A stretch of DNA of 64,000 bases from positions 1 through 64,000 of the forward strand of contig JAIVJI010000003.1 in NCBI GenBank assembly GCA_020200135.1, read 5' to 3'. Shown here piece after piece: positions 14,188 through 58,069 of the stretch. The stretch's first letter is position 1, and the number at the start of each line of letters is the position of its first letter. Position numbers and translations under genes: made by a program. Source of the DNA: Acidobacteriota bacterium (GTDB lineage Bacteria > Acidobacteriota > Blastocatellia > Pyrinomonadales > Pyrinomonadaceae). The notes beneath the pieces are model-generated. The model saw only the letters and a list, made by a program, of their open reading frames with translations. It searched no databases and was not told the origin of the DNA.

Positions 14188-15738
14188 ATGGAGATTCAAA
14201 CGAGCGCCGGCGGCTTCGCCGGGCTGGACGTGCAGGCGCTGGCGGTCGCCGTGTTCAAGGACGAGCGCGCCGACGAGGGCTTCCTCAAGGAACTCGACGA
14301 GGCCTCGGGCGGTCTCGTCCGCTCCGTCCTCGAGTCGGAGGAGCTGAAGGGGAAGGAAGGCGAGTCGGTCTACCTGCACCTGCCGGCCGGCGCGGCGGGG
14401 CCGAAGGCCAGGCGCCTGCTGCTCGTCGGCGTCGGCGAGCGCGCGGACTACCGCGCCTCGCATGTCTCGCAGTTCGGCGGCCTCGCCGTCCGGCAGCTCC
14501 GCGCGCGGAACGTGAAGTCGGTCGGGCTCGTCCCGCGTCACGAAGGCGGCGACGCCGCGCGGTCGGCCTCGGCCGCGGTCGAGGGCGCGGTCATCGGACT
14601 CTTCGAGCCCGACAAGTACCGCACCGTCGACAAGGAGGAGCGGACGGTCGAGCGCCTCGTCGTCGTCGCGGCGGGCGCGGACGAGGAGGCGCTGCGGCGC
14701 GGCGCCGAGCGCGGACGCGTCGTCGGCGAGTCGGTCAACTTCACGCGCGACCTCGCCAACGAGCCCGGCGCCTACATGACGCCGACCATCATGGCCGAGC
14801 GCGCGCAGGAGATAGCCAACGAGTTCGGGCTCGACATCGACGTGCTCGACCAGGCGCGGATGGAGCAGGAGGGCATGGGCGCGCTCCTCTCGGTCGCGCG
14901 CGGCTCCGACCAGCCGCCGAAGATGATGGTGCTCACCTACATGCCCGAGGGCAAGGAGCGCGTCGAGGACGGCGAGGACTTCCTCGCGCTCGTCGGCAAG
15001 GGCATCACCTTCGACACGGGCGGCATCTCCATCAAGCCGGCCGAGAACATGGAGCTGATGAAGTACGACATGACGGGCGGCGCCACCGTCCTCGGCGTCA
15101 TGCGCGCCGTCGCGCAGCTCAAGCCTCCGATTCCGGTCCTCGGCGTCGTCCCCTCGACCGAGAATATGCCCTCGGGCAAGGCCACCAAGCCGGGCGACGT
15201 CGTGCGCGCCATGACGGGCAAGACCATCGAGGTCATCAACACCGACGCCGAAGGCCGGCTCATCCTCGCCGACGCCGTCTCCTACGCCAAGAAGCTCGGC
15301 GCCACGCGCGTCGTCGACATGGCGACGCTCACCGGCGCGGTCTCCATCGCGCTCGGTGACGTGAACACCGGCATCCTCGGCACCGACCAGGAGCTCATCG
15401 ACGAGGTCATCGAGTCGGGGCGCGAGGTCGGCGAGAAGTTCTGGCAGTTGCCGCTCGACAAGGAGTACTCGAAGCAGATCAAGTCAGACATCGCCGACAT
15501 CAAGAACGTCGGGGGCCGGAAGGCCGGGACGATCACGGCCGCGGCCTTCATCAAGGAGTTCGCCGACGGCATCTCGTGGGCTCACCTCGACATCGCCGGC
15601 ACGGCCTGGGGCGACGAGGCCAAGCCCTTCCGCGCCAAGGGGCCGACCGGCGTCGCCGTCCGCACGCTCCTCAACTTCGTCGAGCGCGAGGCGGCGCGCG
15701 CAGGCGGCGCGAAGGAAGCCGAAGGGAAGACGAAGTAA
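14188..15738 (+). CDS. pepA: Leucyl aminopeptidase (M17)
   Basis: VGKGITFDTGGISIKPAENMELMKYDMTGGATVLG...NTDAEGRLILADAVSYAKK. Confidence 0.96.
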   Translation: MEIQTSAGGFAGLDVQALAVAVFKDERADEGFLKELDEASGGLVRSVLESEELKGKEGESVYLHLPAGAAGPKARRLLLVGVGERADYRASHVSQFGGLAVRQLRARNVKSVGLVPRHEGGDAARSASAAVEGAVIGLFEPDKYRTVDKEERTVERLVVVAAGADEEALRRGAERGRVVGESVNFTRDLANEPGAYMTPTIMAERAQEIANEFGLDIDVLDQARMEQEGMGALLSVARGSDQPPKMMVLTYMPEGKERVEDGEDFLALVGKGITFDTGGISIKPAENMELMKYDMTGGATVLGVMRAVAQLKPPIPVLGVVPSTENMPSGKATKPGDVVRAMTGKTIEVINTDAEGRLILADAVSYAKKLGATRVVDMATLTGAVSIALGDVNTGILGTDQELIDEVIESGREVGEKFWQLPLDKEYSKQIKSDIADIKNVGGRKAGTITAAAFIKEFADGISWAHLDIAGTAWGDEAKPFRAKGPTGVAVRTLLNFVEREAARAGGAKEAEGKTK

Positions 15739-15765: not shown

Positions 15766-15810
15766 CGCCGGTGTCCACTTAAGTGAACACCGGCGTCAAC
15801 ATTTGTTGAC
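15766..15810. promoter_or_regulatory. Two adjacent palindromes (operator/enhancer-like)
   Basis: CGCCGGTGTCCACTT|AAGTGAACACCGGCG (15766-15795, one mismatched pair) followed by GTCAACA-TT-TGTTGAC (15795-15810, perfect). Confidence 0.6.
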
Positions 15811-15871
15811 AGGTCTCGTGGGGGCAGGTCTAAAAATCTAGTAAATTTTCAAAAATGTGCTTGCAACGGAT

Positions 15872-15888
15872 TTGGCATATGTGTTGCA
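15872..15888 (+). promoter_or_regulatory. Putative sigma-54 (RpoN) -24/-12 promoter
   Basis: TTGGCATATGTGTTGCA: GG-N10-GC with full TTGGCA and TTGCA half-elements, in an AT-richer stretch of an intergenic region. Confidence 0.65.
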
Positions 15889-15903
15889 ATGTGGCCGTGT
15901 AAC

Positions 15904-15987
15904 ATGAGTTTGAGGGAGCGGGCACCACAAAAAAGTCCTCGCCCCCCTCGGAGGCCGCCCGAGGTCAAGCATCGCCCCCAGACTCAT
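15904..15987 (+). ncRNA. Candidate structured RNA (small RNA or leader)
   Basis: Closing helix ATGAGTTTG (15904-15912)/CAGACTCAT (15979-15987), 9 bp with one G-U; adjoining GGG/CCC; internal CCTCGG...CCGAGG hairpin. Starts a few nt after the predicted sigma-54 start. Confidence 0.4.
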
Positions 15988-15990
15988 CCC

Positions 15991-16052
15991 TTCACACGCG
16001 TACGTCCCGCCCGAAGCTCTTAAAAGTTTCTGGCGGGACGTACGCGTGTGAA
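15991..16052. repeat. Perfect 21-bp inverted repeat with 20-nt spacer
   Basis: TTCACACGCGTACGTCCCGCC (15991-16011) / GGCGGGACGTACGCGTGTGAA (16032-16052). Confidence 0.9.
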
Positions 16053-16158
16053 AATGTTATAGTGGCGCCCGACGGGCTGCCTCCCCGCCCGCGGCGGTTC
16101 ACGTGGGGTGTTGACCCTTCGGGGATACCGCCGGCCACAGCGTTTTCGGAAGCTGGTC

Positions 16159-16971
16159 GTGGTCGATTACTACAAAGTCTTAAAGGTCAAGCGGGCGGCC
16201 TCGGCGGCCGAGATCAAGTCGGCCTACCGGAAGCTCGCGCGCGAGCGGCACCCGGACTTGAACGGCGGTTCGGAGGGCGCCGCCCGCGAGTTCACGCTCG
16301 TCTCGCTCGCCTACCGCACGCTGAGCGACCCGCAGGAGCGCGCCTTCTACGACTCGCAGCTCCAGCGCGTGCACAGCACGGACTTCCGCGGCGGCTCGGT
16401 CTTTCACTCGAACAACCCGCACGCGCAGCGCCTGCGCCGCATGGCCGTCCAGGCGCGCTTCGACCGCCGCGTGGACCAGCTCATCGAGGCCGACCGGCGC
16501 GAGAACTTCGCGCTCCAGCAGGCGGTCTTCACCACCGTCACGCTCTTCCTCTCCACCTTTTTCGTCTCCTGGTTCAAGCCACTCTTCTGGAGCAACCTCC
16601 AGTTCTTCGGTCGCGCCGCGCTCGTCACGCTGAGCGCCATCGGCCTGTGGCACCTCGCCGTCCGCCTCAAGGCGGTCTTCGAACACTTCACCTACGACCC
16701 GAGATCGATTCACGACTCGATCACCGGCGACGGCGACGGCTTCCCCGACAAGCCCTTCACACGCTTCGCCGCCTCGACCTTCCTCATCCTGGGCCCGGCC
16801 GTGAGCATCGCCGTCGGCCACTTCTTCCGCGCGCAGACCCAGTACCTGACCATCTTCCGCGATCTGCCCAACACCTTCGGGCAGCAGTTCACATACGACC
16901 TGCTCTTCTACCCACCCATCGCCGTCCTCATCGTGGACACGATGCACAACATCGCGTCGAAGATCGACTGA
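16159..16971 (+). CDS. J-domain (DnaJ-like) membrane protein
   Basis: [36 protein letters not shown]-domain with HPD, followed by hydrophobic segments. GTG start at 16159 preferred; the longer ORF starts at 16108. Confidence 0.8.
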
Positions 16972-56701: not shown

Positions 56702-58069
56702 ATGTCTGACTCGGTTCTAATCGTTGACGACGAGCGCGGGATACGCGAGACGCTGCGCGCCGTCCTGGAGGACGAGGGCTTCGAGTGCGAGGCCGTCGGG
56801 TCGGGGGAGGAGTGTCTGGTCACGGTCGCGCGCCGCTCGTTCGGGTGCGTGCTGCTCGACGTGTGGCTGCCGGGCCTCGACGGGCTCGAGACACTCGCAC
56901 GGATGCGCGAGCAGGGCGCGGACGCGGCCGTCGTGATGATCTCGGGGCACGCGACCATCGAGACGGCGGTGCGCGCGACCAAGCTCGGCGCGTTCGACTT
57001 CGTCGAGAAGCCGCTCTCCATCGAGAAGACCGTGCTCACGGTGCGCAACGCGCTCAGGCAGCGCGAGCTCGAGCGCGTCAACGCGGCCTTGAGCGACGAG
57101 CTGCGCGACGAGTGGGCGATGGTCGGCGAGTCCGTGGCGCTGCGCGCGCTCCGGAAGCAGATCGCGCTGGTCGCGCCGACCGACGGGCGAGTCCTCATCT
57201 ACGGCGAGTCGGGGACGGGCAAGGAGCTGGTCGCGCGCTCGATCCACGCGCACTCTCTGCGCGCCGCCGCGCCCTTCGTCGAGCTGAACTGCTCGGCCGT
57301 CCCCGAGGAGCTGATAGAGTCGGAGCTGTTCGGCCACGTCAAAGGGGCCTTCACCGGCGCGACGGGGCCGAAGCGCGGGAAGTTCGAGGCGGCCGACGGC
57401 GCGACGCTCTTCCTCGACGAGGTCGGCGACATGAGCCAGCGGATGCAGGCCAAGGTCCTGCGCGTGCTCGAAGAGCAGCGGTTCGAGCCGGTGGGCGGGA
57501 CGAACTCGATGCGCGTGGACGTGCGCGTGCTCGCGGCGACCAACAAGCGTCTGGAGGTCGAGATCGAGCGCGGGAACTTCCGCACAGACCTCCTCTTCCG
57601 CCTCAACGTCATCCCGTTCGAGGTGCCGCCCCTGCGCGAGCGCGCCGAAGACATCCCGCTCCTCGTCGAGCACTTCAACCGGCGTTTCTCGCTCTCCTAC
57701 AACAAGCGGCCGAAGCGCTTCGAGGCGGACGCGGTCGAGGCGCTGCGCGGCTACTCGTGGCCGGGGAACGTGCGCGAGCTGCGCAACACGGTCGAGCGCG
57801 TGGTCATCATGCACACGGGCGCTAAAGTTTCGGCCGCCGACCTCCCGCCGCTCGGCGGCGAGGAGCCGCCCGCCGCCGCGTCGCGCTTCTCCTCGTTCCG
57901 CCACGCCTCCGAGGCGCACCAGCGCGACTTCATCCGCGCGCGCCTCGCCGAGGCCGAGGGCAACGTCTCGCGCGCCGCCGAGCTGATGGGCATGGACCGC
58001 AGCCACCTCTACCGCCGCATGAAAGCCCTCGGCATCAACGTCCGCGAGGAGCGCGCCGGCACGGGCTGA
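56702..58069 (+). CDS. Sigma-54-dependent response regulator (NtrX/NtrC type)
   Basis: REC (VLIVDDERGIRETLRAVLEDEG); GESGTGKELVARSIH Walker A; GAFTGAT sigma-54 contact loop; C-terminal Fis-type HTH NVSRAAELMGMDRSHLYRRMKALGI. Confidence 0.95.
   Translation: MSDSVLIVDDERGIRETLRAVLEDEGFECEAVGSGEECLVTVARRSFGCVLLDVWLPGLDGLETLARMREQGADAAVVMISGHATIETAVRATKLGAFDFVEKPLSIEKTVLTVRNALRQRELERVNAALSDELRDEWAMVGESVALRALRKQIALVAPTDGRVLIYGESGTGKELVARSIHAHSLRAAAPFVELNCSAVPEELIESELFGHVKGAFTGATGPKRGKFEAADGATLFLDEVGDMSQRMQAKVLRVLEEQRFEPVGGTNSMRVDVRVLAATNKRLEVEIERGNFRTDLLFRLNVIPFEVPPLRERAEDIPLLVEHFNRRFSLSYNKRPKRFEADAVEALRGYSWPGNVRELRNTVERVVIMHTGAKVSAADLPPLGGEEPPAAASRFSSFRHASEAHQRDFIRARLAEAEGNVSRAAELMGMDRSHLYRRMKALGINVREERAGTG

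Follow-up and report, generated by a model that had tools for sequence, protein, structure and literature searches.

A new structured RNA family of Pyrinomonadaceae (Acidobacteriota), probably transcribed from a sigma-54 promoter under two-component control

Small RNA (sRNA) genes wired to a sigma-54 promoter and a two-component system are so far known mainly from gamma-proteobacteria, and RNA regulation is hardly known in the Acidobacteriota, which belong to the commonest phyla of soil. In Pseudomonas, sigma-54 transcription of the sRNAs CrcZ and CrcY involves the CbrAB two-component bEBP system and multiple spaced enhancer sites, the CbrB subsites being three in number and non-palindromic (TGTTAC/GTAACA), with at least 61 genes controlled (PMC6296734). 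The Qrr RNAs of Vibrio (LuxO/SypG) combine two enhancer regions, roughly at -60 to -175, with a sigma-54 promoter and an sRNA output (PMC10162802), and in E. coli the two-component bEBP of QseEF/GlrKR activates the gene for the sRNA GlmY via upstream sites and a sigma-54 promoter (PMC6075780). The PEP-CTERM output of a further system, PrsK/PrsR (TIGR02916/TIGR02915), is RpoN-dependent (PMC9850573). The sequence studied here comes from a Pyrinomonadaceae genome available as a draft assembly of 5.27 Mb, and a stretch of 64,000 nucleotides of it—hereafter the window—carries an intergenic element that is best explained, with good probability, as an independent sRNA gene controlled by sigma-54 and activated by a two-component bEBP.

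The element is located between pepA (leucyl aminopeptidase, M17; 14188..15738, + strand) and a J-domain gene (DnaJ domain, PF00226; 16159..16971, + strand), the start of which is most likely the GTG at 16159. Two dyads—the distal UAS1, TGTCCACTTAAGTGAACA, at 15772..15789 and the proximal UAS2, CGTCAACATTTGTTGACA, at 15794..15811—precede a -24/-12 promoter, TTGGCATATGTGTTGCA, at 15872..15888 of the + strand, which has an exact GG (-24) and GC (-12) separated by N10, fits TGGCAY-N5-TTGCW and predicts a start at ~15899, +1 having been set 12 nt after the GC. The sRNA body would cover 15899..15990 (+ strand, 3' end putative), its covariance-model match spanning 15906-15985 and its closing helix (ATGAGTTTG/CAGACTCAT) reaching 15904-15987. 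It comprises, all on the + strand, the 5' strand of the helix P1 including an inner CGG (15904..15921), a near-invariant segment, GTCCTCGCCCC, regarded as a candidate interaction site (15935..15945), the P2 hairpin CCTCGG-loop-CCGAGG (15946..15963) and the 3' strand of P1 (15970..15987). Further downstream follow a 19-bp near-perfect inverted repeat, CACACGCGTACGTCCCGCC/GGCGGGACGTACGCGTGTG, at 15994..16052, by its sequence a possible terminator or operator, and the J-domain gene's own promoter, GGGACG-N17-TATAGT (16035..16063, + strand), with an extended -10, TGTTATAGT, at 16055-16063. The positions that the original prediction had given for the promoter, the foldable segment and both dyads were all found to be correct. 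It should be pointed out that in the window taken alone none of the promoter or fold elements stands out from chance: with three mismatches at most allowed, the 17-nt consensus is found 19 times versus 23 expected, and the RNA by itself folds with a z of -1.55 versus shuffles. The element is considered real because relatives keep the promoter, the helices and the dyads; promoter and helix conservation, on which the prediction had staked itself, is thus found for both.

The RNA is ~85 nt in length; P1 is its long closing helix and P2 its apical hairpin, and its GUCCUCGCCCC segment is near-invariant. Covariance models place it in about 32 of the 119 family genomes, as one copy per genome and in the same genomic place. 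The first model, built from 14 sequences, matched 28 of these 119 genomes once each (E from 7e-19 up to 1.7e-7), genomes outside model building (G078-G080, G120-G135) being included, and the refined second model adds G134 and G122, with the copy in the latter cut by the contig end, and raises L009/G024 and L012/G028; for the RNA in the source genome, covariance model R1 gave E = 1.6e-17. With the J-domain protein as query, the relatives found belong to Acidobacteriota group 4/Pyrinomonadaceae, and the same intergenic array occurs in many relatives whose J proteins are only 50-75% identical. The gene pepA is found upstream of the RNA wherever the contig is long enough, and the 30 full loci all lie upstream of the J-domain gene. 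Beyond the family, a search of 396 phylum and 162 class genomes yielded weak matches only, with E > 0.001 (G195, G302, G057, G494 and others); G195 and G302 (L081, L082) were inspected as possible members and set aside, having no -24/-12 element. Among the genomes searched, the RNA thus appears convincingly confined to Pyrinomonadaceae. Just as the original prediction had failed to assign it to a known family, the search of the window against Rfam 15 gave no match at the gathering threshold, and an E-value search weak sub-threshold matches only. Since the RNA lies outside every Rfam family and its wiring resembles that of CrcZ, Qrr and GlmY, it is a new family inside a known kind of circuit. 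A limited library of open-access literature held no account of this RNA or of any sigma-54-dependent sRNA in Acidobacteriota.

Concerning the structure, 16 of the 19 pairs exhibit changes on both sides and 87.7% of the cells are paired in the model-fitted alignment, none of 500 shuffles reaching any of the measures; since the fitting followed the structure and the sequences are related to one another, the shuffle-based significance is overstated and the figures are upper bounds. Shifting the pair partners by 1-3 columns abolishes the covariation signal. Both strands of P1 covary in relatives, all ten pairs of its outer part being changed on both sides in some relative, and P2 has 94% of its cells paired and double changes in four of six pairs, with a loop of the AGGCCGC type in most relatives. 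The segment originally noted as foldable contains two helices that covary across relatives in this alignment. The structure-blind MAFFT/RNAalifold analysis recovered just seven P1 pairs, from the inner part of the helix only, its signal being weak because of gaps in P1. The near-invariant GUCCUCGCCCC, present as GTCCT..CCC in almost all of the 30 loci, sits between P1 and P2 and has a mean unpaired probability of ~0.25-0.8.

The promoter is retained as well. Of the 30 loci, 27 have a YGGCAY-N5-TTG sequence upstream of P1 at a nearly constant distance of 27-35 nt, and among these 27 both GGCA and TTG are invariant, with N5 free to vary. The C at -12 is kept in 16 of them and is A or T in the other 11, the GC having become GA or GT in the genus g10 and in one other genome. 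Across the 5.3 Mb genome there are 13 matches to the strict core TGGCAY-N5-TTGCW, as against three for the reversed control, and RpoN (PF04552) is found in 111 of the 119 family genomes, including the source genome. The sigma-54 element of the original prediction is accordingly well conserved, and what it had described as two enhancer-like palindromes turned out to be phased tandem dyads, TGTCYAC-N4-GTRGACA, with centres at about -118 and -96, i.e. 22 bp apart; for the majority of the 30 loci, the distal one has its centre between -117 and -121. They fall within the range of ~80-150 bp upstream typical of bEBP enhancer sites, and are predicted as such from sequence. The N4 spacing gave 49 matches versus ~1 expected in shuffles, the other enriched spacings being shifted readings of the same sites; the pattern was derived from the same loci and the count is therefore descriptive, which does not explain the fixed positions and the 22-bp phase. 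The tandem pattern is found at the RNA locus in many relatives and rarely elsewhere; four such places (L091, L095, L096, L097) were set aside, with no -24/-12 at the right distance. The two genomes of the genus g26 (G028 and G078) have neither the -24/-12 nor the dyads at the RNA, and keep the bEBP discussed below with its own dyads and -24/-12.

A few other places carry comparable arrangements. Sites of the form TGTCRCC-N4-GGYGACA with a -24/-12 element (L153, L155, L156, L160; G001, G002, G000:C119, G009) precede a gene for a small membrane protein and make up a second sigma-54 regulon; they were excluded here as a separate class, located beside another bEBP and Flp-pilin-like genes. In G000 and G001, Flp-pilin-like and prepilin-peptidase-like genes follow the small membrane protein gene, and in G000 a receiver-less bEBP (L120) is found near this regulon. 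In a genome without the RNA (G071:C301, L087), tandem dyads of the TGTCAAC type, together with a -24/-12-like element, stand before the gene of a receiver-less bEBP, which suggests possible autoregulation. Two more dyad and -24/-12-like places in G009 (L136, L092), with no obvious gene start downstream, might represent additional sRNA genes in the regulon of the RNA.

The source genome encodes ~20 bEBPs. The original prediction had pointed to an NtrX-type regulator encoded in the window (56702-58069), the best match of which among all families is NF051870 (NtrX) with 451.8 bits against a cut-off of 600, so that it is NtrX-like only; it was rejected as the activator, having no TGTCYAC-type dyad nearby, whereas the RNA co-occurs with a PrsR-like bEBP that is encoded elsewhere and has the enhancer of the RNA beside it too. 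This candidate, at G000:C123:13429-14823 (the C123 bEBP), has the architecture REC-AAA+-Fis, and its gene comes after that of a HAMP histidine kinase in the four loci examined. Its best NCBIfam match is TIGR02915 (PrsR), with 435 bits and thus below the equivalog cut-off of 502.6. No bEBP locus of the source genome other than this one has a TGTCYAC-type dyad with a -24/-12 element; near the L120 bEBP, dyads of another class are present. The C123 sites lie in front of a gene for a stand-alone receiver that directly follows the bEBP; such a receiver, adjoining the bEBP and preceded by this dyad and -24/-12 element (L043 / L191:11098-11511), could be a feedback or phosphate-sink partner. Orthologues of the C123 bEBP (64-89% identity, the next proteins reaching at most 53%) occur in 33 of the 119 genomes, and the RNA is present in 29 of these 33, which corresponds to a Fisher p of 4e-20 over genomes and 2e-5 over genera, in a statistic that ignores phylogeny. 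The RNA is without the bEBP orthologue in G020, G121 and G128 (62-87% complete), and the orthologue is without the RNA in G132, G004, G006 and G027, the J-domain orthologue being absent from the assembly in the latter three. Of 30 orthologue loci, 11 have the dyad and -24/-12 beside the bEBP, those of both g26 genomes included, with mostly 80-83 nt from the dyad centre to the promoter. Within the genus, a half-dyad with -24/-12 is conserved at two intergenic places only—that of the RNA and that of the REC gene adjoining the bEBP—the other matches being in coding DNA or unshared. The activator of the RNA is thus likely the C123 pair of histidine kinase and PrsR-like bEBP.

The evidence on what is transcribed has to be weighed against two other readings. 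The RNA could form the beginning of a long J-domain mRNA that is made conditionally, i.e. act as a sigma-54-driven 5' leader regulating in cis, as the original prediction had allowed beside a small RNA; the order of RNA and J-domain gene is indeed the same in all 30 loci, at a distance of 102-296 nt, and a clear hairpin and U-run terminator between them is missing in most of these loci. The J-domain gene, however, has a promoter of its own: in 28 of the 30 loci an extended -10 (TGnTATAnT) follows the RNA and precedes the gene, and relatives without the RNA have a similar promoter before the gene. For this reason an independent sRNA is preferred to a leader. Moreover, pepA is equally syntenic, two relatives (L012, L079) have a strong hairpin with a T7-T8 run between RNA and gene, and the conserved segment shows no pairing with the start of the J gene. 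The leader is consequently judged improbable, and of the two options in the original prediction it is the small RNA that has gained support. In several genera, an RGGACG hexamer is seen 17 bp upstream of the J-domain extended -10, in the source genus inside the near-perfect inverted repeat; it might be an unusual -35 or, alternatively, an operator. A short peptide, for which the ATG at the start of P1 in the window and a frame open for some distance might speak, can be given hardly any credence: lengths in relatives range over 77-98 nt and leave every possible remainder on division by three, every frame is broken in about half of them, and the changes track base pairing rather than codons. As the lengths ignore multiples of three and no frame is open throughout, the segment is, by this comparison, non-coding.

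As for the control of the sRNA gene, a housekeeping promoter may be thought to drive a genuine RNA structure, with the -24/-12 match being incidental. TTGCA(A/T)-N16/17-TATNNT-like sequences are indeed present just upstream in several genera and are the sole promoter-like sequence in two genomes, but a YGGCAY-N5-TTG preserved at its distance around a freely varying N5, together with dyads at two fixed positions that are both gone in the two genomes lacking the -24/-12, makes this reading very unlikely. Such a sequence with N16 lies just upstream of the -24/-12 position at L012, L079, L058 and L061, and in the genus g26 a promoter of this kind may have replaced the sigma-54 control of the RNA. 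It is also conceivable that gene and promoter are read correctly and the activator is another of the ~20 bEBPs, since binding by the C123 bEBP is a prediction and its orthologue is missing from three RNA-bearing, incomplete genomes. The near-perfect co-occurrence of this bEBP with the RNA and the sites it shares with it, absent from the remaining bEBP loci of this genome apart from the different class near L120, argue against that, and we regard another activator as unlikely.

Based on the above results, the sRNA circuit may be envisaged as follows. The HAMP histidine kinase and the C123 bEBP would sense some signal, and the phosphorylated bEBP would bind the tandem dyads at -118/-96 and activate sigma-54 RNA polymerase at the -24/-12 promoter. 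The product, presumably ~90-150 nt long and starting a few nt before P1, would form P1 and the hairpin P2 as well as an internal loop that contains the near-invariant GUCCUCGCCCC. Its mode of action and targets are a matter of speculation: it would most likely act in trans, the C-rich segment pairing with GA-rich (Shine-Dalgarno-like) mRNA sites or binding a protein, and this near-invariant segment offers a direct handle for target finding. A limited scan for duplexes with 42 gene starts, neighbours and co-regulated genes included, gave no convincing pairing. An alternative helix between the near-invariant segment and the 5' strand, GGGnn.GGAC/GTCC.CGCCC, could form in many of the sequences, has 80% of its cells paired and is a possibility suggested mostly by columns that barely vary. 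On a tentative and rather doubtful reading, the sole conserved sigma-54 output of a dedicated two-component system, besides the stand-alone receiver, would be a conformation-switching RNA in which GUCCUCGCCCC is either accessible within the P1 internal loop or masked by the 5' strand (GGGCGcGGAC type); if true, the RNA would be a regulated device in a phylum with little-known RNA regulation.

Compared with the systems described previously, PrsK/PrsR is related through the bEBP, TIGR02915 being the best NCBIfam match of the C123 protein, which differs, however, in staying below the family cut-off and in its gene surroundings (inositol-phosphatase-like and metallophosphoesterase). With GlmY the acidobacterial RNA shares a two-component bEBP, upstream sites and a sigma-54 sRNA promoter, as predicted from sequence, whereas the RNA is a different one from a different phylum. 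The likeness to Qrr would consist in two enhancer regions, a sigma-54 promoter and an sRNA output, but the UAS of LuxO is TTGCAWWWTGCAA, and the acidobacterial RNA is unrelated in sequence and structure as far as Rfam tests. Concerning CrcZ/CrcY, the site centres are 20-25 bp apart for CbrB and 22 bp for the acidobacterial RNA; the latter, however, has two palindromic TGTCYAC-N4-GTRGACA dyads instead of three non-palindromic subsites, belongs to no Rfam family and would share its regulator with one further conserved site in the genus, two in all, as opposed to the 61 or more genes of CbrB. If the proposed circuit is true, a complete and testable one—kinase, bEBP, enhancer pair, sigma-54 promoter and structured RNA—would be added for a lineage of Acidobacteriota, and the wiring of the CrcZ/Qrr/GlmY type would extend beyond the proteobacteria.
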